A model generated the notes under the pieces. That model saw only the letters and a list, made by a program, of their open reading frames with translations. It was not told the DNA's origin and did no database searches. This document shows positions 1,059-51,621 of a stretch of 64,000 nt of DNA, piece by piece; the stretch's first letter is position 1; each line of letters opens with the position of its first letter. Location: assembly GCA_030679915.1 (NCBI GenBank), contig JAUXRY010000005.1, positions 1-64,000 on the forward strand, given 5' to 3'. Source of the stretch: Thiobacillus sp. Lineage in GTDB: Bacteria > Pseudomonadota > Gammaproteobacteria > Burkholderiales > Thiobacillaceae. Made by a program: the position numbers and the translations under genes.

Positions 1059-1611
1059 CTTGGCTTTTGAGCGCGCCAACAGTATTCTCAGGCATCGTGG
1101 GAAAATTCACAGTGGAATTGATGAAGAACCCGATTTTCCAGTCGCAAAGCGGCTGCTAATGAGAAATTTGAACGGCTGGCACCGGATAATCGGACGGTCA
1201 CAGTCGAACCTCTGGCTGACAGCGCCAGTTTGAGCCTAGGTCTGCAAAGCAGCCGTTCTAGGGAAGTCAAAGGCCAAGCACGAGCGGCTGATTTGGTCGG
1301 CGGAGCGGACGTAGCCCGCATCGGTTGAATCCGCAGGGGTGGACCGGCCGCTCAATAGCGCTGGTGTAGCGTTTCACGGCCGTCTCTTCGGCCGAAATAT
1401 GCCCAACACCAAACTGGCCCGTTGCCAGCTAGCTGCCTTTACGGGTCTCCGTGTGAGCCAAAGCTAACTGCCAGGATTTCCGAACCGAGATGAATGAACT
1501 GTGTAGCACAAGCTTGTGCGTTTACTGTGGCTGATGACCGGACTGTCGCGGCGATCCCACTGACGGTCTCTCTTCTTGGCCGATAAGCGACTGTCAGATG
1601 ACGCTTCCGAC
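1059..1611. other. Non-coding spacer between IS30 and the TfoX-like gene
   Basis: About 550 bp with no open frame I recognise. The string ATCGGTTGAATCCGC at 1321-1335 recurs at 41180-41194, immediately after an IS30 transposase fragment, so this stretch may be debris of an older IS30-type insertion. That is an inference from one short shared string. Confidence 0.4.
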
Positions 1612-1956
1612 CTAGCGAGTTCGGGCGCCTTTCACAAACTCGATCGAGGTCTGAAACAGCTCGAGATCCTTCTCGTACTCAGTCGCCTCGGCGCGGTCAA
1701 TCTGTATCCATTCCCTGGTGCTAGCCATACCGCCGGGCTGAAACGGGACGACGTCGCCCCTTGAGAACTGCAGTTCGGTCGCGGTAGCGGCGGGCAGGCG
1801 CAGCCCGACACCGCCACCGCTGATGCAGGCGAACATCTTGTCGCTGACGAAGTAGGCATCAAGGCCGCTGATTTTTCTTGCGCTGACGCCAGGGAGTTTG
1901 AGAAGCAGAGCGTCGATCAATGCCTTGCGAATGGATTCGGGTGTATCAGTATTCAA
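1612..1956 (-). CDS. TfoX N-terminal domain-like protein
   Basis: A protein of about 114 residues resembling the TfoX N-terminal / YjbR-like fold. The features used are a KISGLDAYFVSDKMFACIS segment, a GVGLRLP strand and a late FQPGGM-REWIQI segment. The only in-frame start at the 5' end is a TTG at 1956 with no convincing Shine-Dalgarno sequence, and an in-frame stop lies just upstream, so the N-terminus is uncertain and may be truncated. The function of stand-alone TfoX_N proteins is unknown. It lies alone between IS30 debris and the DUF736 gene. Confidence 0.6.
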   Translation of the reverse strand: MNTDTPESIRKALIDALLLKLPGVSARKISGLDAYFVSDKMFACISGGGVGLRLPAATATELQFSRGDVVPFQPGGMASTREWIQIDRAEATEYEKDLELFQTSIEFVKGARTR

Positions 1957-2147
1957 GGAGGGTCGCCGGGGTTGTCATGAACAGAGTCATTGAATCATAA
2001 AGGCAAGGTCCATGTGGTTAATCCTGGAAGTTAGAGAGCGCTTCAAGTCAGGCGCATGCATGCAAACGATCAGGTTTGCACTGCCGACAAGTCGAAACCG
2101 GAAGGCTACAGCCCTGACGACGGAAGCTCGTAGGAACGACTTCCCGC

Positions 2148-2176
2148 AAAAAACGCCCCGCCGCATAGGCGGGGCG
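2148..2176 (-). terminator. Rho-independent terminator of the DUF736 gene
   Basis: CGCCCCGCC-GCATA-GGCGGGGCG (2154-2176) forms a 9-bp GC-only stem. On the minus strand it is followed by six T residues (2148-2153). It lies 13 bp beyond the stop of the DUF736 gene. Confidence 0.85.
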
Positions 2177-2189
2177 CCGAGGGCGATGA

Positions 2190-2495
2190 TCAATCGCCCT
2201 TGCTGCGCGACCAGATCAGGTTGTGTACGCCATCCTCGCCCTCGACCAGACGGGCGTAGATGGTCGCCGGGAACGACGGGTCATCCAGGGTTGCCGACAG
2301 GTAGGGCCGTTCCGCCTTGCTGATTTTCTTCCACGCCGCGCCGATCTCGAAATTGCCGGCGACGATGCGGTAGTTGGGGGCGTTCTCGCTCTCCCCGGTG
2401 TTCGGGACGAATTTGACCTTGACGTTGAGCGTCAGGGTACGAACCGTGCCGATGAAGCTGTCGTTCTGTGCGGTGAAGGTGCCAATGTTTGCCAT
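2190..2495 (-). CDS. DUF736 family protein
   Basis: 101 residues beginning MANIGTFTAQNDSFIGTVRT, the characteristic DUF736 start, followed by NAPNYRIVAG and GAAWKK. The start at 2495 is set by AAAGGAGATTCATC immediately upstream, so longer in-frame extensions are unlikely. DUF736 proteins are small and uncharacterised, and are found mainly on plasmids and integrative elements. It sits with DUF932 and RadC genes on the same strand, each separated by a long spacer and ending in its own terminator, so these are separate transcription units of mobile-element cargo. Confidence 0.9.
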   Translation of the reverse strand: MANIGTFTAQNDSFIGTVRTLTLNVKVKFVPNTGESENAPNYRIVAGNFEIGAAWKKISKAERPYLSATLDDPSFPATIYARLVEGEDGVHNLIWSRSKGD

Positions 2496-3311
2496 GATGA
2501 ATCTCCTTTTGGTGGTGCAAGGTCGCGCCCATCGCGGCCTTGTCGGTGATCCGATGGGTGAGGGTCGGGCGGGCTGCATCGCGCAGCGGCCGCAACAGCG
2601 TGGAGGACCGGGAGGAACAAGAAATTTGTTTCGCGAGGAAGGCACGGAGTGCCGGGGAAATTTGTTGGGCTGGACGGTTGCAGCCATGAAGCCCGAGGCG
2701 CAGCCGCTACCTCGCCAGGATTCACGACAAGCCAAGGCCGCCGTTGGGTGCGACTCCATCCGAAAGGCATCATGGCACTGGCATCTCCGCACAGAAGCGT
2801 CGCCGGCACGCACCCCATCGCAGTCAAGGTCAGTCCGAATCACCCGGGATGAACGCCCCTTGTGCATTGACGAAGGTTTGACCGTTCGTAGCGTGGCTGC
2901 GGAAAGGCAGGGTGGACGGTCTGTCGTGAGCTGCCGTCGTTCATGGCGACCTGCCCGCCAGCGTCGGGGACGGCGCGCAAACGCATAACCGGCGCAGCAA
3001 GGTTTGTCCTACTCGCCGCCCAGCCTTCGGCAGGGCTCGCATCGAGGGAAGGATGGATCGTTGGCTGTTAAAACGCGCGCGGCAAGTGTGCCGCGCGCGA
3101 CGCGCCAAAAATAGCCCCGGCGAGCAACTTGACGGGCTTCCCGCTTACCTGCAATCAGCGACCGGGGAAACGTCTCCCTGTGCTTCCGGCTCCACCGCGC
3201 GCTGCATCAACGGCAGCCAGCCCGTGCCCAGCGCCAGCCGTTCCGCTTCGCTGTCCAGCGCTTTCTTCCTGAGTCGGGTCAGACGTGCTGCGTACTCAGA
3301 TGCAACCAAAT
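2496..3311. other. Long spacer between the DUF932 and DUF736 genes
   Basis: About 815 bp of GC-rich sequence without a gene I can support. Open frames on both strands here are low-complexity and overlapping, with no ribosome-binding site or family signature. It probably contains the DUF736 promoter. Confidence 0.5.
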
Positions 3312-3331
3312 GAGGGGGGCGAAGCCCCCTC
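3312..3331 (-). terminator. Terminator of the DUF932 gene
   Basis: GAGGGGGGCGAAGCCCCCTC forms a very GC-rich hairpin just past the DUF932 stop. On the minus strand it is followed by CATTTGG, so the T-tract is weak. Confidence 0.6.
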
Positions 3332-3336
3332 GCATG

Positions 3337-4164
3337 TCAGTTCTTGAGCCGCTTCATCTCTTCGGCCAGTATCCACAGCGCCCGGTTGACCTTGACGTTC
3401 TGGTCTATACCCTGGATGGCGCGGGTGCGGTTCCTGCGTCCGTTGGCCGTGCGTGCGGTCAGTCCACCCTGCACCAGATTTTCCTGCACGCGGTTGAACG
3501 TGCTCCACAGGTCGGGCCGGTCGTCGTCCCGGCGTCGAGGCCGCAGCAATTGTGTTTCCGTGATGGGCGCAGGCTTGACTGGGTCATCGTATTTCAGCGA
3601 CAACGCGGCGCGGGCAAATGCCTCGGATTCGCCGTGCTTGAGCGTGATGGCGGCCATATCTTCCCGACGTTCCCGCACCAACTCGAACCCATCCAGCACA
3701 TCGTAGGCACCTTCGATCACCTGGCCGATCACGTCGCCCTTATGCGGGATGCGCAGGTCGGCCACGGTGTCGCCGCATACCAGCCCATTGCTGCACACGA
3801 AACGGAACATTCCGGCCAACATCTGATAGCTGCTGGTGCCGTCGTGCGAGTTCAGCAGAATGATTTCGTTGGCCTCTGCGCCGTTGATCTGCGCTGCGTG
3901 GCGCAATCGCAGCATGTGCTTGGTGTGCTTGCGCTTGCCATTATCGCGCACACGCGTCTGGCACACCATGAATGGCTGGAAGCCTTCCTTGCGCAGGGCA
4001 CCCAATACCTCGCCGGTCGGAATATAGGTATAGCGGTCGGATCGGCTCTGGTGCTTCTCTTCCGCAAAGATTGAGGGAGCCACGCTGCGAATCTGGTCAT
4101 CCGATAACGGATGGTCGGCGCGTAAGAAGGGCGTAGCGTTGGCGAAACGGGAACTGAGTTGCAT
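3337..4164 (-). CDS. DUF932 domain-containing protein
   Basis: 275 residues matching the DUF932 family in length and layout: an N-terminal LSDDQIRSVAPSIFAEE, the central YTYIPTGEVLGALRKEGF and FMVCQTRVR, then HMLRLRHA, NEIILLNSHDGTSSYQM and the conserved FRFVCSNGLVCGD. DUF932 proteins are phage- or plasmid-associated and of unknown biochemical function, often encoded near RadC-like and DUF736 proteins, as here. The ATG at 4164 is preceded by GGAGAAATACC. Its presence without replication, partition or conjugation genes nearby suggests a remnant element. Confidence 0.9.
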   Translation of the reverse strand: MQLSSRFANATPFLRADHPLSDDQIRSVAPSIFAEEKHQSRSDRYTYIPTGEVLGALRKEGFQPFMVCQTRVRDNGKRKHTKHMLRLRHAAQINGAEANEIILLNSHDGTSSYQMLAGMFRFVCSNGLVCGDTVADLRIPHKGDVIGQVIEGAYDVLDGFELVRERREDMAAITLKHGESEAFARAALSLKYDDPVKPAPITETQLLRPRRRDDDRPDLWSTFNRVQENLVQGGLTARTANGRRNRTRAIQGIDQNVKVNRALWILAEEMKRLKN

Positions 4165-4709
4165 GGTATTTCTCCAGTGGTTACAGGCTGTGGTTTCAAA
4201 GCTGACCGGATTCCAAGATCCGGAGCCCGGTGTTGGCTTCGGTGGGTTCGGCGCAGTGACCTGGGCTGGTCGCCGTTGCCGCCGTCTTTCCTGAGTTCAT
4301 CGCCCGCGAACAACCGGGCCGGCGAGGGACTGGCGGTCAAGGAGGAAAGCGCAGGGGGGGTGCGGCCCGCAGCCGCAGGCGAGGACACGGCCCTGCGCGC
4401 CTTGACGGACAGGCACTGCTGGCTACGGTCGCGGGATCAGTGATGAAGGAGAGGGGAAGACGGATGACCGGCCTGCGGCCAGATGAGCGACGTACCCACG
4501 CCGCGCGGCGAGCGCTGCTGCGTGCCGCAGGCGCGCCTGCTGAAGGTGAACACAGCGCATAGCGCGCAATCGGCACCGAGTGTTGGCCGATCAGGCGCCG
4601 CCTGTTCGGCGGTCTTGCGGGGCGCCAAGCCTGCGCGGCGGGGTGGGCGTCAGCCGACCCCTGGAGGCAAGCGCAGCGCGCAGCGTCTTCTCGAAACCAA
4701 GGACACAGC
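4165..4709. other. Spacer between the radC and DUF932 genes
   Basis: About 545 bp of GC-rich sequence. Several overlapping open frames exist on both strands but none has a recognisable domain or a ribosome-binding site. No gene is called. Confidence 0.5.
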
Positions 4710-4733
4710 AAAAAAAGGGGGCGATGCCCCCTC
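4710..4733 (-). terminator. Rho-independent terminator of radC
   Basis: GGGGGC-GAT-GCCCCC forms a tight hairpin at 4717-4731. On the minus strand it is followed by seven T residues (4710-4716), a few bases beyond the radC stop. Confidence 0.85.
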
Positions 4734-4736
4734 GGG

Positions 4737-5243
4737 CTACAGCAGCCCGCATTCAGCAAACGACAGGATGGCGCTGCCGGCGACGATCAGGTGATCCAGC
4801 ACCCGCACGTCCACCAGCGCCAGTGCCGATTTCAGCGTCTGCGTCAGCGTCTCGTCGGCGCGCGAGGGTTCCGCCACGCCCGACGGATGGTTATGCACCA
4901 GTAGTAAAGCCGCACTGTTCATGGCTAAGGCCTCCTTGACCACCTCGCGTGGATACACCGATGTCTGGCTCACCGTGCCGCGAAACATCTCGACGTAGTC
5001 GATGACGCGGTTCTGCGCATCCAGATGGATGATGGCGAACACCTCGTGCTCCAGCGCCCCCAGCTTGACCCGCAGGAAGTCGCGCACCACCTGCGGCGAG
5101 GTCAGCGCTTCGCAGCCGCGCATCTGTCCTGCGAGCACACGCCGCGCAGCCTGCAACACCTCGTCGGCATTGGCCGGACGGTAGTCACCCATGACATCGC
5201 GAACGAGAAGGGAAGAATCGAGGGAAAGAGAAAGTTGCAACAT
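4737..5243 (-). CDS. radC: RadC/JAB-domain protein
   Basis: 168 residues from the ATG at 5243. This is the short, MPN/JAMM-only form typical of mobile elements, lacking the helix-hairpin-helix N-terminus of chromosomal RadC. The metal-site motif HNHPSG followed by SRAD at the right spacing (H-x-H-x10-D) is present near residues 120-135, and FRGTVSQTSVYPREVVKEAL is the conserved preceding strand-helix. Despite its name, RadC is not an established DNA-repair enzyme. The family is found in anti-restriction or plasmid-leading regions, and here it accompanies DUF932 and DUF736. The start was chosen because MLQLSLSLDSS begins the conserved region. Confidence 0.9.
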   Translation of the reverse strand: MLQLSLSLDSSLLVRDVMGDYRPANADEVLQAARRVLAGQMRGCEALTSPQVVRDFLRVKLGALEHEVFAIIHLDAQNRVIDYVEMFRGTVSQTSVYPREVVKEALAMNSAALLLVHNHPSGVAEPSRADETLTQTLKSALALVDVRVLDHLIVAGSAILSFAECGLL

Positions 5244-10915: not shown

Positions 10916-12116
10916 TCAGGCTTGCTTGTCTTTTCGCAACTTGGCCAGCCAGTGCTCCATCTGCTTGCCGGCGGCTTCGCGGCCACCCAGCCCGAAGGAC
11001 AGTGCAATGGCGACTGCCACTGCGCCAAACACCAGAAGGAAAGCCAGGTTGACGATCTCGTCGGCAATGCCCATGGCAGACAGGCCCATGGGCACAACCA
11101 GACCCAGTATGGCGTAGCGGGCGATACTGGCCATGCCAAGCGCACTGCCACCGCTTGCGCGCATGTTGGCCCGGTGAGCCAGATTGGCCAGCCAGAAACC
11201 AATCAGCAGGATGCCCACGCCGAGCAGTACATCACCACCAAACTGGATGAACAGGATCAGCACTGCTGCGAAAATGTTGGGGATGGATTGCATCATCAAG
11301 CCCAGCATTTCGGTGGCGGGACCGGAGATGGCTGTGATCTGAAGCGCATCCAACGCCGCTATCATCACGGGCACGAACACCAGGATAAATACCAGCAACC
11401 CTGCTAGCTTCGATAACTCCAGGCGATCCTGCATGCCCGCCGATTCGCCCAACTTTTCAGCGCCAACCGCTGCCAGCAGGTTAGTGACCAGACCACGCAG
11501 GATTTTGGCTACCAGCCAGCCGGCCAGAACGATGATCGCAGCAGCAAAGATGTTCGGCAGTATGGCCAAGGTTTCGCTCACCATATTGCGTACCGGGTCG
11601 AGCATGCCATCCAGTTGCATGACGCCCAGCACGGCAGGCAGGAACATCAGGATCACCAGCCAGAACAGGACATTGCCCACATTGTCGCCCATGGGGGACA
11701 TGCCGGCTTTTTCGACGAGTTTTTCATCCCACAGTGTCGCTTTGAGCGCACGGTTGGCCAAGCCCCTCACAACCGTGGCCGCCAGTCAGGCAACCAGGAG
11801 AAGGAGCACGCCAGCCAACAGGTGGGGCAGGTAGGTCATGATCTGGGACATCATCTCGGCAAACGGCCCGGAGAGCTGATCCAGATTGAGCGCGTTGAAC
11901 ACGCCTAATATTGTCGCAAGGAGGATGAACCAAAAGACTCCCAGCGCAACCCCACCTTCGATATCCATGGGCTTGCCCACGGAACTCGAGACAAAGGAAT
12001 TGACACGAAGCATGGAAAGCAGCTTGCGTACCGCTGCCCGGGCTAAAAGGACTATTAATATAGCCTACAACCAGGATGCCCGCCGAGGATTGCAGGCAAG
12101 TGTGCGCCCAAAGCAT
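10916..12116 (-). pseudogene. MscS-like 'conserved TM helix' channel protein, disrupted
   Basis: The minus strand encodes a membrane protein with repeated MscS-type TM helices, broken at several points. From 12013 the frame reads to LLLVA, then meets a TGA at 11788-11786, and continues in the same frame with LAATVVRGLANR for about 290 more residues. In the second repeat of the same protein the matching stretch is VLAGWLVAKILRGL, so the TGA replaces a conserved Trp (TGG to TGA). Upstream of 12013 the first TM helix is split over different frames (LPAILGG, ILVVGYI, then LLARAAVRKLLS), showing further indels. The intact protein would have been about 400 residues. Downstream of the stop an internal start could still give a 284-residue product. 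Confidence 0.8.
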
Positions 12117-13759: not shown

Positions 13760-14662
13760 TTAAAGCGCACCGCTGGCGAGCCAGCGTGCGCAGTCATCCC
13801 CTAATTCACGTTCGCAGCGTACCTCGTATTCAGCCGAATCTTCTGGCGTGAGGGTGTCACGCCAGCGACCGTTGACACCTTTGTGGATGAAAACCTCGGC
13901 GCCGCCATCCCAAAAGGCGCCACCCAGCGGGACGCTTTGGGCGGCGTGTTGTTTCATCCAGTCGAAGCTGCAATAGGCGACGATGTCATGCCAGCGAGAT
14001 TCGTCGATGGGGATATCAAGAAACCGTGCAATATTGCGCATCTCGCTTGGCATGTCCCGCTTCAGCGCGCTGAAATGCACAAACAGCACATTCGGTAGCT
14101 CACGCTGAGCCCACCAGCTACGTACGTTATCCCAGAACGGCCAGAATGGATGACCATCCTGGTCTAACCAGTGACGCCAATATTGACGGATGTCGTTGGG
14201 CGGTGGCTCGATAGGCGGACCCATACGGCCTGGGGTGTCGTTCAAGGCGGCATACCAGGCTGCGTTAGCGTTGACGTGGTGGTTATACATACTCCAAACC
14301 ACGTCGCGTCCATCGCGTGCGATGTAGAGATATTTGGCGCGCGGTGAAAACACCAGGGCGTCAACCGGCAGATGCGTCTTTAAAATTCGACGATGTGTTT
14401 GCGATTCCACAGCAGGTAATTTTTCCGCCTTGGGTGGCACACGCAGATCCAGCCAGGGCGACATTTCGGCTACGGGCAGAGACGGGTCGCCACCGAACAG
14501 CATTTGAGCCACGATCTGTTGCATCCAGGTGGTGCCGCTCTTGGCGTAGGTGGCTATCACGATGTCGTCGTCGCGGAAATGGAGGTCATTCCAGATGGTT
14601 GAGTCGAAATGATGGTTGTGCAATTCCCTTGATTTGGTTGGCCAAGTGATGGTGTCGTTCAT
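13760..14662 (-). CDS. Sulfotransferase family protein
   Basis: 300 residues from ATG 14662 (GAGGAA upstream). The 5'-phosphosulfate-binding loop YAKSGTTWMQQIVAQML is near residue 38. The 3'-phosphate-binding region YLYIARDGRDVVWSMYNHH and the C-terminal FIHKGVNGRWRDTLTPED (the conserved RKGxxGDW-type segment) are present. This is the cytosolic Sulfotransfer_1 fold, which moves sulfate from PAPS to an alcohol or amine. The bacterial acceptor cannot be predicted. It is divergently oriented from the arsenic operon, and the two share the spacer 14663-14815. Confidence 0.88.
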   Translation of the reverse strand: MNDTITWPTKSRELHNHHFDSTIWNDLHFRDDDIVIATYAKSGTTWMQQIVAQMLFGGDPSLPVAEMSPWLDLRVPPKAEKLPAVESQTHRRILKTHLPVDALVFSPRAKYLYIARDGRDVVWSMYNHHVNANAAWYAALNDTPGRMGPPIEPPPNDIRQYWRHWLDQDGHPFWPFWDNVRSWWAQRELPNVLFVHFSALKRDMPSEMRNIARFLDIPIDESRWHDIVAYCSFDWMKQHAAQSVPLGGAFWDGGAEVFIHKGVNGRWRDTLTPEDSAEYEVRCERELGDDCARWLASGAL

Positions 14663-14742
14663 GCGTGTATTCCTCGAGGAACAGGTATCGGGTCTCGTAC
14701 AGCCAAGAGTAGGCAAGACAAGGGCGGTCGGCAACCTGACAC

Positions 14743-15154: not shown

Positions 15155-15636
15155 AACGCTTGCATGTACACGTTGCGGTCGACGATCTGGCCGCCAGTAT
15201 TCGTTTTTATTCTGCAATGTTTGCTTCTGTCCCTACCGTTTCCAAGGACGATTACGCAAAATGGATGCTCGATGATCCGCGGGTGAACTTTGCGATTTCT
15301 GCGCGCGGTGCCAAGCCAGGCCTTAACCATCTGGGCGTGCAGGTCGAATCGGCCGACGAACTGGCCGAGATGAGTGAGCGCCTGCAAAAGCTGGACGCCG
15401 AGGTGGTGGAAGAAATGGGTACTGCCTGTTGCTACGCCAAATCGGACAAATACTGGGCGACCGACCCGCAGGGTATTGCCTGGGAAACCTATCACACGCT
15501 TGATAACATCCCGGTGTTTGGCGGGCAGGGCGACGCCGAGTCGGCAAGCGGGTGCTGTGTGCCCGAACCTGCCGTGTCCAAGATGGCCAGCAGTATTCCA
15601 GTCAAGGCCAAGCCCGCTTCGGGATGCTGTTCCTGA
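15151..15636 (+). CDS. arsI: ArsI/CadI-family vicinal-oxygen-chelate protein
   Basis: 161 residues. The VOC/glyoxalase fold is seen from MKRLHVHVAVDDLAASIRFY through LNHLGVQVES to WATDPQGIAWETY, supplying the metal ligands His and Glu. The vicinal Cys pair in GTACCYAKSDKYW is the feature of ArsI carbon-arsenic lyases, which cleave methylarsenite to arsenite. Two further CC pairs lie at the C-terminus (SGCCVPE, SGCCS). CadI-type cadmium-induced proteins share the fold, so the substrate is inferred from the arsR-arsC-acr3 context. Confidence 0.82.
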   Translation: MKRLHVHVAVDDLAASIRFYSAMFASVPTVSKDDYAKWMLDDPRVNFAISARGAKPGLNHLGVQVESADELAEMSERLQKLDAEVVEEMGTACCYAKSDKYWATDPQGIAWETYHTLDNIPVFGGQGDAESASGCCVPEPAVSKMASSIPVKAKPASGCCS

Positions 15637-15679
15637 ATTTCAAATATTTCAAATTCTTTTTTTTAATCAAGGACCTAAC

Positions 15680-16099
15680 GTGGCTAAAAAGATCCATACC
15701 GTACTGGTGCTGTGCACCGGAAATTCCTGTCGTTCACAAATGGCCGAGGTGTTGCTGAATCATGACTTGGCCGGTCAGGTGCGCGCGCTGTCTGCAGGCA
15801 CCCGGCCACAGCCCAAGGTGGCCGATGGCGCGATTGCAGCCCTGCAGCAGGCAGGGTTGCCGACCGCCGGCTTGCAGCCGAAGGACATCGATTCGATGAT
15901 GAATGAGCCCATCGATCTGGTGGTGACAGTGTGCGATAACGCCCGCGAAGCCTGCCCGATTTTCCCGAAACCGATCCCGGCCATCCACCTGCCGTTTCAC
16001 GACCCGCACGGTGAACCGCTGGAAAGCTTTATTGCCGTGCGCGATGACATCCGGACGCGCCTGATTGCTGCGGTCAAAGAGACGTTGCATCTGGCATGA
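15680..16099 (+). CDS. arsC: Arsenate reductase, low-molecular-weight phosphatase type
   Basis: 139 residues starting at GTG 15680, with AAGGA 7 nt upstream. The P-loop LCTGNSCRSQMAE (Cys-x5-Arg-type active site) is at the N-terminus. The two later redox cysteines lie in TVCDNAREACPIF, as in thioredoxin-coupled ArsC of the S. aureus type. It reduces arsenate to arsenite in the cytoplasm for export by the next gene product, with which it overlaps by 4 bp. A T-rich stretch at 15655-15666 precedes the start. Confidence 0.92.
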   Translation: MAKKIHTVLVLCTGNSCRSQMAEVLLNHDLAGQVRALSAGTRPQPKVADGAIAALQQAGLPTAGLQPKDIDSMMNEPIDLVVTVCDNAREACPIFPKPIPAIHLPFHDPHGEPLESFIAVRDDIRTRLIAAVKETLHLA

Positions 16100-32599: not shown

Positions 32600-33064
32600 T
32601 CAGTTCGCCATGAATCGGCGCGCCAGCCAGTGATCCAGGCTCAGCTTGCCGGGACCACTCAACAACAGCGGCACAAACATCACCAGATACATCAGTGGCA
32701 GCTTGTAGCCATTGTCGCAGACGTTGTAGCCATTGCCCGAATGAACACTGACCCAGGCAACGATGGTGAGAATGATGAGGGACACACTGAAGAAACGGGT
32801 GCCGAGGCCAATTACCAGCGCAACGGCGCCCAGCAATTCTGACCAGGTGGCCAAAAACCAGGAAATATCCACAGGCACGATGTTGAATGGAAACGGAAAG
32901 TTTTCCTGAACATTGATGAACCAATTCTCGCCGGTAAATTTCTGGACGCCGGCTTCCCAGAATTCCCATGCCAGTAACAGCCGTATACCCAATAGCCCCA
33001 GATAGCTTCCGGCCTGGTCAAGCCGCGTGGTCAGTCTGGTGTACACATTAACGATGGCATTCAT
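32600..33064 (-). CDS. DoxX-family membrane protein, HvfX-like
   Basis: 154 residues with four probable TM helices. The DoxX family pattern is clear (GIRLLLAWEFWEAGVQKF, ATWSELLGAVALVIGL, LIILTIVAW). The FENWF-type region with ENFPFPFNIVPVDISW is the form found beside HvfA-type RiPP metallophore precursors. In complete loci such proteins accompany the HvfB (MNIO/DUF692) and HvfC maturases. Here the precursor gene lies 72 bp upstream, but no HvfB or HvfC gene is present. The molecular role is not settled. Confidence 0.82.
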   Translation of the reverse strand: MNAIVNVYTRLTTRLDQAGSYLGLLGIRLLLAWEFWEAGVQKFTGENWFINVQENFPFPFNIVPVDISWFLATWSELLGAVALVIGLGTRFFSVSLIILTIVAWVSVHSGNGYNVCDNGYKLPLMYLVMFVPLLLSGPGKLSLDHWLARRFMAN

Positions 33065-33136: not shown

Positions 33137-33469
33137 TTACTTATTTCTTTTTGGTGGCGCCGCACTTGCCTTCACCGCATTTTCCTTCTTTTGCTTTGGG
33201 TCGGCAGCCTGAGCGTTTTTAGTGCCGCCACATTTCCCTTCACCACATTTGCCGTCTTTTGCCTTGGCATCAGTGGCTTTTGAGGTTTTAGTCGCGCCGC
33301 ATTTTCCTTCGCCGCACTTGCCGTCTTTGGCTTTTTCAGCTTGTGCGATTTGATAGCCTTGCGAAAGATCGTTCAGTGCAAAGGGATTGCCGTTCGCTGC
33401 GTAGGCGACCCCTGCGGTGCCGAGTGCAGCGGTTAAAGCGAACGTGAGGGTTGCAGTGCGTGTTTTCAT
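33137..33469 (-). CDS. HvfA-like RiPP metallophore precursor with frameshifted C-terminus
   Basis: 110 residues from ATG 33469, preceded by GGAGATTGACC. A Sec signal peptide (MKTRTATLTFALTAALGTAG, then VAYA) leads to two in-frame repeats, KDGKCGEGKCGATK and KDGKCGEGKCGGTK, the EGKCG-type motif of HvfA-family precursors whose Cys residues are modified for copper binding. After ADPK the frame reads QKKENAVKASAAPPKRNK. In the +1 frame the same DNA reads KEGKCGEGKCGATKKK and stops at 33141, a perfect third repeat. One lost G (AAAGGCAAAA to AAAGCAAAA) would explain it. Two of three repeats survive. No HvfB/HvfC maturase is adjacent. Confidence 0.85.
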   Translation of the reverse strand: MKTRTATLTFALTAALGTAGVAYAANGNPFALNDLSQGYQIAQAEKAKDGKCGEGKCGATKTSKATDAKAKDGKCGEGKCGGTKNAQAADPKQKKENAVKASAAPPKRNK

Positions 33470-33597
33470 GGTCAATCTCCAAAAGTTTGGTGTGCTGTTG
33501 CCCATGCAGCAGGATTTAAGTGGGCGGGGGTGAAAGCGTAAAAAGGATTAAATAGATATATCTGTATCAGTTCGCAACCCGGAAACCGGGACTGTCT

Positions 33598-33843
33598 TTA
33601 TCGTCCGGAAATCACCTTGCTGATGCGTTGATGCGCTTTCGTCGATAACGGATGGGCTGCCCCGGTTGTATCGTGAAGGCTCGATTGGCGCAGCAAGCGC
33701 CGCATCTGCCGAATCTGGGTTTCGAAACGTCGGCAGTTGATGCACATCCACACGTGCATGCGCAGGCCCAAGCTCTCGAAAAGCCCCAGGGTGCGATCCT
33801 GGCTTTCTGATACCAGGTGGCTTGCGCCTTGGCATGTCAGCAT
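33598..33843 (-). CDS. Zinc-finger (zf-HC2) anti-sigma-like protein
   Basis: 81 residues. The N-terminal LTCQGASHLVSESQDR and the H-x3-C-x2-C motif in HVWMCINCRRFETQIRQM match the small zf-HC2 anti-sigma family that commonly precedes HvfA-type or DUF692-linked metallophore genes and is encoded just after an ECF sigma factor. Here no sigma factor gene precedes it, so it would be an orphan. It is on the same strand as, and 128 bp upstream of, the precursor gene. Metal or redox sensing through the zinc site is known for the family and is inferred here. Confidence 0.75.
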   Translation of the reverse strand: MLTCQGASHLVSESQDRTLGLFESLGLRMHVWMCINCRRFETQIRQMRRLLRQSSLHDTTGAAHPLSTKAHQRISKVISGR

Positions 33844-33881: not shown

Positions 33882-34103
33882 AGACACTGAGGAGATCACA
33901 ACAGATTCCATTTCAGCGTTGTACCCCCATTCGTCGGTGGGATCTGTGCTTCCTTACAGCGTGTGGACTGTTTTTTCGACGGGATACGACAGTGCGCTCA
34001 GTGTGTGCCGCTTGGGTCTGGGTGAAACCGGTCTATATCTATTGGTGTAAGGCAGATGCCTTAATATCGACCAATCACATTCAATTTTATGAAAGGAACC
34101 AAC

Positions 34104-34553
34104 ATGTCCAGGATTGCCATGGTTGTTTTGTCGGCCGCTCTTCTTGTTTCGCCAGTGTATGGAGCAAGCAAATTGATATCCGTACCCAGTGCTCAATCGG
34201 CGAAGGTGACGCTGGATAAACTTGAAGCGCTTGCACAGGCCCGTGGTCTGAAAGTATTTGCACGCATCGATCACACAGCGGGCGCACAAAGCATTGGAGA
34301 AAAGCTGCGCCCCACCGAGCTTATGATCATGGGCAATCCAAAAGGCGGCACCCCTTTGATGCAATGCAATCAAGCCTATGGCATCGATTTGCCGCTTCAT
34401 GTGCTGGCCTGGGAAGATGCAGCGGGTAAAAGTTGGTTGAGTTACAAGGATCTGTCCAAGCTCGGCAACAAACATGCAGACGACAGTTGTGATGCTGCGC
34501 TCAAGCGGTTGACCGGAGCGCTAGAAGGATTGGTGACTGAGGCCGCCAAGTAA
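34104..34553 (+). CDS. DUF302 domain periplasmic protein
   Basis: 149 residues from ATG 34104, chosen for the AAAGGA 7 nt upstream. A signal peptide (ending near VSPVYGA) precedes a DUF302 domain: KVTLDKLEALAQARGLKVFARIDH, LRPTELMIMGNPKGGTPLMQ and GIDLPLHVLAWED. The fold is small alpha/beta; its function is unknown although it often appears with sulfur- or metal-related genes. It ends in DDSCDAALKRLTGAL. It stands alone between the metallophore remnant and rhlE. Confidence 0.85.
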   Translation: MSRIAMVVLSAALLVSPVYGASKLISVPSAQSAKVTLDKLEALAQARGLKVFARIDHTAGAQSIGEKLRPTELMIMGNPKGGTPLMQCNQAYGIDLPLHVLAWEDAAGKSWLSYKDLSKLGNKHADDSCDAALKRLTGALEGLVTEAAK

Positions 34554-36309: not shown

Positions 36310-36347
36310 CGTGGTTGTTACCGACATACATGTCGGTAACAACCACG
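36310..36347. repeat. 18-bp perfect inverted repeat between rhlE and the methyltransferase gene
   Basis: CGTGGTTGTTACCGACAT and ATGTCGGTAACAACCACG are separated by only AC. The RNA would form an almost unbroken 18-bp hairpin. It lacks a T-tract, so it is not a classic terminator. It sits 29 bp upstream of the next start codon and could affect its translation. Confidence 0.75.
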
Positions 36348-36376
36348 GCCTCCCATTTACTGGGAGAATTGCCGCC

Positions 36377-37882
36377 ATGGACACCCTCGCCAGCTACGAC
36401 GAACTGCCTTACGACAGCCTGCCGCTGCCCGAAACCCAGCCGGATTTTCTGGCGGCGGTGGCCCGGTTGCATGGCTTTGATGCACCCGACCCAACGCGTG
36501 CGCGCATCCTCGAACTGGGGTGCGCGCAGGGTGGCAACCTGATTCCCCTGGCGTGGCGCTGGCCCCAATCCGAATGTGTGGGCGTGGAGTTGTCGCGCGT
36601 GCAGGCGGAGAGGGGCACCCAGTTCATCCAGCAGTTGGGCATTTCCAACGTCCGCATCCAGCATGGCGACCTGGCAGACTTGCCCGGCGATCTGGGCATA
36701 TTCGATTACATCATCGCGCACGGCGTGTATTCCTGGGTGCCGCCTTCGGTGCAGCAGGCGTTGCTCGACGTCTGTCACCGTCATCTGTCGCCGCATGGCA
36801 TGGCGTACATCAGCTTCAACGTCACGGCCGGTTGGGTGCCGCTACAGCCGTTGCGCAACGCGCTGATCGAACGCACTGCCACCGACCTGCCGGCGCCCGC
36901 GCGTTATCAACAGGCGCTGCGCGTGTTGAACGAACTTGAAGCCGAGTGGAACGATCCGGTATTGAGAAAGGAAATCGCCTTTCTCAAGACCGCGGCGCCG
37001 TCGTATCTGTTTCACGAATACCTCGCCGACTTCAACACGCCCGTCAGCTTCGGTGAATTTGCCATGCAGCTCGAATCGCATGATTTGCGTTACCTCGGTG
37101 AAGCCGGGCCGCGCCACGCCGTGGTCGAACTCGAAGACACCTGGGGACTGACGCCGGAAGGCATGGCCGGGCGCTGGCAGGATGCCGAGTCGGCGCTGGA
37201 CGAAGCGCACGCCATCCGTTTTAGACGTGCGCTGATCGCGCGCGCCGACGCCCCCTGCGCACAGCCCCCACAAGCCGGGAACTTGAGCCACCTGGCGTTT
37301 TATACCGACCTGCAAAGCGACGACGAAATCGACCTTGAAAACGCAAGCGAGCAACGCTTCATCAACCCTGCAGGCAACACCTTTCCGGTCGCGCAGCCGG
37401 CGATGAAGGCCGCCGTAATGGCCCTCTCGATGGCTTATCCAAATGCGCTGGCGTATCCGGATTTGCTGATGGCAGTCCGGCAGGTAATGGCCGAATTCGG
37501 CGCGTCAAACCCTGTCGATGAAGCCCTGTTCCGCAACGCACTGTTTCAACTGGTAGCGGCGCATGGCGTGATGCCCTGCATCCGCGCAGGTTCGGCTGCG
37601 GGGAGCCCCGGCGAATATCCATGCGCGCAGACGCTGGCCCGATTGCAGGCGCGTTCGCCCGGCTGGATGGTCAGCTGCCTGCGCCACACCACCCTGGATC
37701 TCGACGCGGCCGCGTGCAAACTGCTGGGTTTGCTGGACGGCAGCCACACCGTCGACGAACTCGACGCACTCATGCAGGCCACATTGGCCGAGATGGGCGT
37801 GGAGCAATCGCTTGAGCATGTTAGCGAACGCACGAACCAGCAAATGTGGTTGTTTGCTCGCCAGGGTTTGCTGGTGAAGTAG
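36377..37882 (+). CDS. Class I SAM-dependent methyltransferase with regulatory domain
   Basis: 501 residues from ATG 36377. The SAM-binding motif I is ARILELGCAQGGNLIPLA, followed by ECVGVELSRVQAE (motif II acidic residue) and DLPGDLGIFDYIIAHGVYSWV. The second half contains the 'methyltransferase regulatory domain' (from LRNALI through PSYLFHEYLADFNTPVSF) and a C-terminal winged-helix-like end (LGLLDGSHTVDELDALM). The substrate is unknown. The start at 36377 begins the conserved MDTLASYDELPYDS. An inverted repeat immediately upstream may form a hairpin in its leader. Confidence 0.85.
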   Translation: MDTLASYDELPYDSLPLPETQPDFLAAVARLHGFDAPDPTRARILELGCAQGGNLIPLAWRWPQSECVGVELSRVQAERGTQFIQQLGISNVRIQHGDLADLPGDLGIFDYIIAHGVYSWVPPSVQQALLDVCHRHLSPHGMAYISFNVTAGWVPLQPLRNALIERTATDLPAPARYQQALRVLNELEAEWNDPVLRKEIAFLKTAAPSYLFHEYLADFNTPVSFGEFAMQLESHDLRYLGEAGPRHAVVELEDTWGLTPEGMAGRWQDAESALDEAHAIRFRRALIARADAPCAQPPQAGNLSHLAFYTDLQSDDEIDLENASEQRFINPAGNTFPVAQPAMKAAVMALSMAYPNALAYPDLLMAVRQVMAEFGASNPVDEALFRNALFQLVAAHGVMPCIRAGSAAGSPGEYPCAQTLARLQARSPGWMVSCLRHTTLDLDAAACKLLGLLDGSHTVDELDALMQATLAEMGVEQSLEHVSERTNQQMWLFARQGLLVK

Positions 37883-50341: not shown

Positions 50342-50986
50342 ATGAAGGGTTTTGTGACGGGCGTGTTGACCACGCTGATAGTGGGTGCAGGCATTGGGCT
50401 TGCGGTAGTGTATGGCGGAAAGGTGGACGTGGCTGCGGACAGCCCGCATAGCGACCTGCTCTTCAGCTTGCTGGAAACCGCACGTGAAAAATCGATAGAC
50501 CAGGGGGTAAAAGGCCTGAGCGTGCCAATCAATCTGGCTGATAAAGACCGCATACGTCGTGGCGCAGGTAACTACGATGCCATGTGTGTCAGTTGTCACC
50601 TCGCTCCCGGTACGGAAAACTCGGAAATCCGGATGGGCTTGTATCCAACGCCGCCCAATCTGAGCACGCTGGACGAGCCGTCAACTGAAGCGGCCGCGCG
50701 AAAGTTCTGGGTGATCAAGCACGGCATCAAGGCATCAGGCATGCCAGCCTGGTCCAAAGGCGGGATCGAAGATGAGGCGATCTGGGACATGGTGGCCTTC
50801 TTGCAGGTGATGCCCAAGCTCACACAAGCGAGCTACGGCGAATTGGTCGAAGCGAGCGAAGGGCATTCGCACGGCGGTTTGACGGGCGGGGAGCTCATGC
50901 ACGGGCAGGGAAGTGACGTAATGACGGCGCCGGCAAAAGTCAACGGACGCAGTGGGCACGACAATTCGGATGGCCATGCGCACTGA
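50342..50986 (+). CDS. Membrane-anchored mono-heme cytochrome c
   Basis: 214 residues from ATG 50342 (GAGGAGAG upstream). An uncleaved N-terminal hydrophobic segment (FVTGVLTTLIVGAGIGLAVVY) is followed by a heme c domain with one CVSCH motif (near residue 80) and GIKASGMPAWSKGG supplying the axial Met. The C-terminus is His-rich (EGHSHGG, GHDNSDGHAH), a possible metal-binding tail. It lies in the copper island, between the oxidase and DUF411 genes, and could pass electrons to or from copper proteins. Confidence 0.85.
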   Translation: MKGFVTGVLTTLIVGAGIGLAVVYGGKVDVAADSPHSDLLFSLLETAREKSIDQGVKGLSVPINLADKDRIRRGAGNYDAMCVSCHLAPGTENSEIRMGLYPTPPNLSTLDEPSTEAAARKFWVIKHGIKASGMPAWSKGGIEDEAIWDMVAFLQVMPKLTQASYGELVEASEGHSHGGLTGGELMHGQGSDVMTAPAKVNGRSGHDNSDGHAH

Positions 50987-51091
50987 TTCATGAGGATATT
51001 GTCATCGCGCATAGCGGTGCTGTGTGTGAGTGGACTTCGCCATCCCAGCCTCACGAGCAAAAATGACGCTGACTGGATATCCCGTATTGTC

Positions 51092-51117
51092 AAAGATGAC
51101 GTAATTGTCATCTTTGC
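51092..51117. promoter_or_regulatory. Copper-box-like palindrome upstream of the DUF411 gene
   Basis: CAAAGATGAC-GTAATT-GTCATCTTTG: two 10-bp perfect arms. It contains AATTGTCATC, as in the copR-copA promoter, and resembles CusR-type boxes. It lies 60 bp upstream of the DUF411 start, so this gene and the CusF-like gene are probably CopR-controlled. Confidence 0.75.
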
Positions 51118-51177
51118 GTCAGCTTGTCGTTGCCGCGTGTGGTTCACACTGAAGTCATCAGTCAAGGAAAACCACAC

Positions 51178-51621
51178 ATGAAAATGACTTTCCTCAGAAG
51201 CCTGTTGCTGGTCGGTGTCTTCGCACCCACCGCCTGGGCCGCATCTGAAGCACCTGTCGTGGATGTTTACAAAAGTCCTACGTGTGGCTGCTGCAGCAAA
51301 TGGGTCGACCACCTCAAGGCCAATGGCTTCACAGTCAGAAGCCATGACACGCAGGATGTGGCGGCACACAAAGTGCGCTTGGGTGTGCCTGCCGGTTACG
51401 GCGCCTGCCATACCGCGCAAGTTAATGGCTATATGGTCGAAGGTCACGTCCCGGCCAAAGAAATAAAACGCATGTTGAAACAGAAGCCCCGTGTCCGCGG
51501 CTTGGCTGTACCGGCTATGCCGATGGGATCACCGGGTATGGAAACCACTGGGCACAAGGATTCGTATGATGTTTTTGTCGTGAACCGGGATGGGTCTACA
51601 CAAACCTACGCCCACTATTGA
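51178..51621 (+). CDS. DUF411 periplasmic metal-binding protein
   Basis: 147 residues from ATG 51178 (AAGGAA upstream). A signal peptide (ending AWA) is followed by the DUF411 signature VYKSPTCGCCSKWVDHLKANG (CxxC-like CGCC), GVPAGYGACHTAQV and YMVEGHVPAKEI. DUF411 proteins are strongly associated with copper resistance and are thought to bind Cu(I) through the conserved Cys residues. The gene is directly downstream of a copper-box-like palindrome and precedes a CusF-like gene by 11 bp. Confidence 0.9.
   Translation: MKMTFLRSLLLVGVFAPTAWAASEAPVVDVYKSPTCGCCSKWVDHLKANGFTVRSHDTQDVAAHKVRLGVPAGYGACHTAQVNGYMVEGHVPAKEIKRMLKQKPRVRGLAVPAMPMGSPGMETTGHKDSYDVFVVNRDGSTQTYAHY

Follow-up and report, generated by a model that had tools for sequence, protein, structure and literature searches.

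How does a gene built from repeated cysteine motifs come to carry one of its repeats in the wrong reading frame, and what would be left of its product? This question is raised by a small gene in a stretch of 64,000 nucleotides (the window) from the metagenome-assembled genome of a Thiobacillus sp., a sulfur-oxidising and apparently environmental bacterium, lying on contig C33 of an assembly of 2.52 Mb in 42 contigs that is 79.67% complete. The gene encodes the precursor of a ribosomally synthesized and post-translationally modified peptide (RiPP). Two of its repeats are read in frame and the third one stands in another frame, one base away from the arrangement found in its closest relatives.

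The precursor gene and its out-of-frame repeat

The elements in question, all of them within a few hundred bases, are these:

33137..33469, minus strand: EGKCG/HvfA-type (captophorin/oxazolin) precursor as deposited, an open frame of 110 amino acids matching NF050137
33141..33194, minus strand: third repeat AKEGKCGEGKCGATKKK, a second-frame reading with its stop at 33141
33194..33200, minus strand: place where the frames part according to the ortholog alignments, reading C_CCA_AAG in the frame used, a slippery heptamer of the form X_XXY_YYZ

Translated from 33469 to 33137, the product comprises an N-terminus, MKTRTATLTFALTAALGTAGVAYA-AN, that by eye resembles a Sec signal peptide, two KDGKCGEGKCG repeats, and a basic tail free of cysteine, AADPKQKKENAVKASAAPPKRNK. 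The proline codon at the place of parting occupies 33199-33197. The two in-frame repeats and the perfect third one in the other frame had been described in the original prediction, and both are borne out by the translations. The scrambled tail described there is present as well, but its last three residues had been left off.

The precursor matches NF050137 (KCGExKCG_twice, NCBIfam) with 42.1 bits against a cut-off of 19.5, which places it among the proteins with this motif pair. Searched over the whole genome, the same model also matches the out-of-frame third repeat (G000:C33:33156-33197). Against NF050188, the model for HvfA equivalogs, the precursor reaches 32.1 bits and the three intact orthologs that were scored reach 47.9-58.1, all under the cut-off of 95; a Pfam scan of the precursor gave no match. 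Judged by these matches, the precursor is otherwise an ordinary member of the known EGKCG-type class of copper RiPPs (Cu-RiPPs), an assignment that holds at the domain level, and the peptide that it encodes is predicted to be small and probably copper-binding. The HvfA-like assignment made earlier agrees with the NF050137 match and with the HvfX neighbour (150.5 bits, see below), whereas the oxazolone/thioamide copper ligands named along with it are superseded by 5-thiooxazole, as reported in PMC13419390 and PMC13097082.

Orthologs and the place of the missing base

The precursor search covered 60 genomes, the source genome included, and gave 45 match rows in 26 of them; 30 loci, with that of the window (L003) among them, were inspected by eye. 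The four closest orthologs (L047, L048, L049, and L050) encode three Cys pairs in a single frame, even though L049 carries a run of N at the second repeat. Their main-frame tail reads DPK, followed by A or V, K or R, EGKCGEGKCGATKK, and K or I. Since these four orthologs encode the same tail in their main frame, the out-of-frame third repeat of the window is not a product of chance. The shifted frame with its scrambled tail is absent from all the orthologs inspected, none of which shares it. Only two of the inspected loci have a broken repeat frame, that of the window and L027 (G019), all others having their Cys motifs in the main frame. L027, on contig C22 of its genome, is a second EGKCG-type precursor with this kind of break, and the match to a multinuclear non-heme iron-dependent oxidase (MNIO) on the same contig comes in two pieces. 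No second intact copy of the precursor was found in the source genome, where C33 and another contig, C4, are the only matching places.

Each of the four orthologs is one base longer than the window gene, the difference falling between repeats 2 and 3. Pairwise alignment with each of them places the gap at one end or the other of the CCC run (33198-33200), where an Asp codon meets a Pro codon, and the five-sequence alignment places it at the same run; the exact missing base cannot be fixed from these alignments. The earlier proposal had put the indel (insertion or deletion) at 33187-33192. Counted on the five-sequence alignment, a gap there gives more differences against three of the relatives and an equal number against the fourth (L048), so that the alignments favour the CCC run. 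The core of that proposal is upheld: one restored base joins the three repeats, the orthologs are one base longer with a three-repeat frame, and the comparison suggested as a check finds this frame intact in all four of them. The single-base runs of at least three bases nearby are one A5, two A4, two A3, and the C3, with a G3 further up in repeat 2.

Repeat number varies among relatives. Of 11 hvfX-linked precursors, three KCGEGKCG pairs are found in six and two pairs in two (L057 and L060), the other three (L054, L056, and L058) combining one pair with single Cys residues. A total of four Cys is found at five of these 11 loci (L054, L056, L057, L058, and L060); for L060, this count applies from a later ATG (L010), its listed frame, with six Cys, starting too early. 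What the original prediction describes as a site losing its function would correspond to one Cys pair out of three, in a genus where natural four-Cys precursors occur.

Age of the frame loss

Over the final 54 nucleotides read in the second frame, three sites separate the window from L048; each is a third position of the old frame, in which the change is silent. The same three sites set the window apart from all four relatives, and each of them changes an amino acid in the frame now used. For comparison, the first 88 codons of the gene have 21 differences from L048 (5, 2, and 14 by codon position) with eight amino-acid changes, and hvfX has 28 (6, 2, and 20 by codon position). The three window-only changes thus probably arose while the old frame was in use. 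As all three are silent in that frame, the shift is either very recent or not real, and, on this pattern, the frame loss would most likely reflect either a small mutation of very recent date or an error of assembly. Both a recent loss and a sequencing error had been considered in the original prediction; the substitution pattern fits them, without separating the one from the other.

Quality of the assembly

The window was compared with G012, a relative at 94-97% (alignments of at least 90% identity in pieces of at least 400 bp). The alignments cover 49,276 bases of the window, including 44,185 under the mechanical set of open reading frames (ORFs), and this set is hit at 18 sites by indels whose length is not a multiple of three. 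A six-frame protein comparison (80% identity, E 1e-5), in which short pieces at gene ends can be missed, needed two frames at three places of the window, the precursor among them. At 13760-14734, the window has an intact sulfotransferase-family ORF of 324 amino acids, which in G012 (L128) is divided between two frames. At 15374-16099, where there is an antisense ORF too, the indel at 15660 precedes both the phosphatase domain and a likely in-frame start at 15680. On this comparison, the precursor is the only gene of the window judged to be broken.

Several of the other ORFs hit by indels are of doubtful standing. A Pfam scan gave no match for five of them (3053-3313, 4337-4759, 11724-12116, 33954-34475, and 50833-51447), nor for 33548-33835, which overlaps the anti-sigma gene described below in another frame. 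The DUF736 domain of 2190-2867 lies away from its indel at 2859, and the two indels of 36311-37882 sit just after the listed start. The idea that the assembly is generally rich in indels is therefore rejected as far as genes are concerned, and the absence of such a general problem favours a real event at the precursor. A separate cluster of single-base indels relative to G012 (L129) was seen at 1559-4727, intergenic and in doubtful ORFs. An Rfam scan of the window at gathering scores gave two tRNAs and nothing else.

Neighbouring genes and maturation enzymes

Two genes on the same strand flank the precursor:

32600..33064, minus strand: hvfX, encoding the DoxX-family membrane protein of Cu-RiPP clusters, downstream of the precursor (150.5 bits, cut-off 80)
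33598..33843, minus strand: small anti-sigma-like gene, upstream of the precursor (NF052368, 67.6 bits, cut-off 50)

This hvfX is the sole place in the source assembly that scores over the HvfX cut-off, and the best-matching relatives of its product in named genomes include proteins of Sulfuriferula multivorans Bin2_2 (97%), Hydrogenophilales bacterium LH_M41 (96%), and Thiobacillus sp. MAG_95 (93%). No sigma-factor gene was seen adjoining the anti-sigma-like gene, and one is present on C4. Neither an MNIO nor a DUF2063 gene was found on C33, the genome having two PF05114 and two PF09836 matches, all of them on C4 and C13. The stretch on C4 (L041 5462-8828, G000:C4) encodes an HvfB-type MNIO (429.2 bits, cut-off 360) with its DUF2063 partner, together with a sigma factor of the extracytoplasmic function type, an anti-sigma gene, a PCu(A)C copper chaperone, and an EF-hand-bearing precursor with KCG motifs. 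The latter falls just under the NF050137 cut-off (18.8 bits against 19.5) and matches the lanmodulin model weakly (26.8 bits, cut-off 135). The stretch on C13 (L042 9311-11388) holds a BufA2 precursor (NF050166, 98.2 bits, cut-off 60), a BufB-type MNIO (389.6 bits, cut-off 310), and a DUF2063 partner, and this BufA2/BufB set is a second Cu-RiPP system of the genome.

A HvfX unit standing apart from the MNIO unit is usual in the genus. Across 56 genomes, with many short contigs among them, only two of the 33 HvfX places over the cut-off share their contig with an MNIO (G016 C18 and G028 C16), and the MNIO of G028 C16 is closer to the C13 type and lies in the opposite orientation (L040). On G016:C18 (L037/L052), an anti-sigma/precursor/HvfX unit and an anti-sigma/precursor/MNIO/DUF2063 unit are arranged in tandem, and this arrangement suggests an origin for the split units seen in the genus. 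In L061, from a more distant relative, anti-sigma gene, precursor, MNIO, partner, and HvfX follow one another in one row. EGKCG core genes are reported to occur in various combinations, and precursors of the other two bufferin families to be found away from MNIO genes (both in PMC12452194). From this gene content, we infer that the C4 MNIO and its DUF2063 partner may modify the window precursor in trans.

Some HvfX genes have no adjoining precursor at all. The one in L064 lies beside an opposite-strand SelO gene (339.2 bits), and L071, L078, L091, L104, L107, and L117 likewise have HvfX without a precursor and an opposite-strand neighbour whose protein start, by eye, is like that of L064.

Weighing the explanations

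The explanation that we favour, by a modest preference when all of its parts are taken jointly, starts from an ordinary EGKCG-type precursor in a small anti-sigma/precursor/hvfX unit of a Thiobacillus-like bacterium. One base would have been lost between repeats 2 and 3, leaving two Cys pairs and a basic tail without cysteine. This deletion would be real and very recent, and the resulting four-Cys peptide would still be exported, would receive its modifications in trans from the C4 enzymes (HvfB-type MNIO and DUF2063 partner), and would bind copper, the loss costing capacity rather than function. The function would probably be kept because four-Cys precursors stand at this locus in relatives. 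By analogy, a working product probably needs no more than two pairs, since a peptide with two EGKCG 5-mers is reported to be modified by the FonBC enzymes (PMC13097082). Some points weigh against this account. The C4 MNIO has an EF-hand-type precursor of its own adjoining it; three synonymous changes are a small sample, expected about once in 27 by chance if codon positions were random; and the base may simply be absent from the consensus, as a single local assembly error is possible. This last point leads to the most serious competitor, an artefact of assembly or base calling in which an intact three-repeat gene lost one base in the consensus, perhaps helped by the near-identical neighbouring repeats. 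We regard it as appreciably less probable than a real deletion with a working product, but as a substantial possibility. The source genome is fragmented and incomplete, the shifted stretch has no sign of relaxed constraint, the shifted frame is seen in none of the orthologs inspected, and the broken precursor of L027 with its two-piece MNIO match comes from a congener that is itself fragmented (about 210 contigs). However, the six-frame comparison with G012 gave no further window gene judged broken, and the run at the gap is just three bases long.

In a further explanation, ribosomes might slip back by one base at C_CCA_AAG, so that a single gene would yield a mix of four-Cys and six-Cys copper peptides; this leaky rescue is improbable in our view. 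It is true that the gene has just one X_XXY_YYZ heptamer in frame, against a base rate of 50 in 11,430 codons over 22 hand-picked long ORFs of the window, that this heptamer sits exactly where the frames part (33200-33194), and that C_CC.A_AA.G is reported as the top one of 64 heptamers in Escherichia coli, with 54% frameshifting in the presence of the IS3 pseudoknot (PMC4066793), a review also rating the motif as highly shift-prone (PMC5009743). The coincidence is nevertheless weak evidence, because wherever CCC AAA G is read in frame, as in L049 and L050, deleting a neighbouring base is by itself enough to create the slippery phase. Without stimulators, the three best motifs are reported to reach only about 0.3%, with a gain of at most about 12-fold in a study cited there (PMC4066793). 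No Shine-Dalgarno-like stimulator was seen by eye just upstream, and the RNA downstream is predicted to fold less stably than most of its shuffled versions (z = +1.20, 183 of 200 at least as good; pseudoknots not searched). As the four closest orthologs are unshifted, nothing about the arrangement is conserved, and a conserved programmed frameshift was rejected on this ground and on that of the absence of a predicted stable downstream structure. Phase variation by slippage in a repeat tract, which had been proposed earlier for a G run, fits the single-base difference between the frames, but the G runs there have only two or three bases, no run nearby exceeds five, the longest being the A5, and the run at the gap is the C3. 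As the place of parting has no suitable tract and none of the four closest orthologs is in the other phase, it was rejected, and we consider it very unlikely. Equally remote is a new tail selected to replace the third repeat. The new frame does stop just four bases beyond the old stop and its tail is basic like the old one; however, this tail is absent from every ortholog inspected, and all three window-only changes alter it while being silent in the old frame.

Significance

If the deletion is real, this gene would represent a repeat-built RiPP precursor that loses one Cys pair in a single step, its signal-like N-terminus and other repeats staying in frame. It would also be a natural test case for whether the loss of frame at a slippery run stays leaky and, if the leaky rescue were true, a RiPP precursor in which ribosomal frameshifting determines how many metal sites the product has. 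For annotation, the frames of small precursor genes from metagenome-assembled genomes should be checked against relatives before repeat counts are compared. Judged by titles and abstract openings among the matches listed, no report of a frame-broken precursor was found in the literature.

Comparison with known systems

The closest known system is HvfA, the oxazolin of Haemophilus, in which HvfBC is reported to convert the six Cys within three AEGKCGEGKCG motifs into 5-thiooxazoles (PMC13419390); the same assignment for HvfA-type Cys is given in PMC13097082, where the class name captophorins is proposed. The window precursor shares with HvfA the GKCGEGKCG pairs behind a signal-like N-terminus and an HvfX encoded alongside, and its closest orthologs have three pairs and six Cys, as HvfA does (PMC13419390). 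Contrary to HvfA, it stays under the NF050188 cut-off, the genes for HvfB and HvfC lie outside its unit, and its third repeat is out of frame.

Fontiphorin (FonA) and the captophorins in general share the EGKCG 5-mer repeats with it, and the source genome has the corresponding HvfB-type MNIO and DUF2063 partner; in the fon cluster, however, precursor, MNIO, and partner are described as standing together (PMC13097082), whereas in the window unit they do not. In vitro, FonBC is reported to modify a peptide with two 5-mers but not one with a single 5-mer (PMC13097082). The Buf_EGKCG precursors of the MNIO landscape study (PMC12452194) differ from the window gene in its frame break before one repeat. 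Finally, the BufA2/BufB set on G000:C13 resides in the same genome and is likewise a Cu-RiPP set, with another type of precursor and a BufB-type MNIO.
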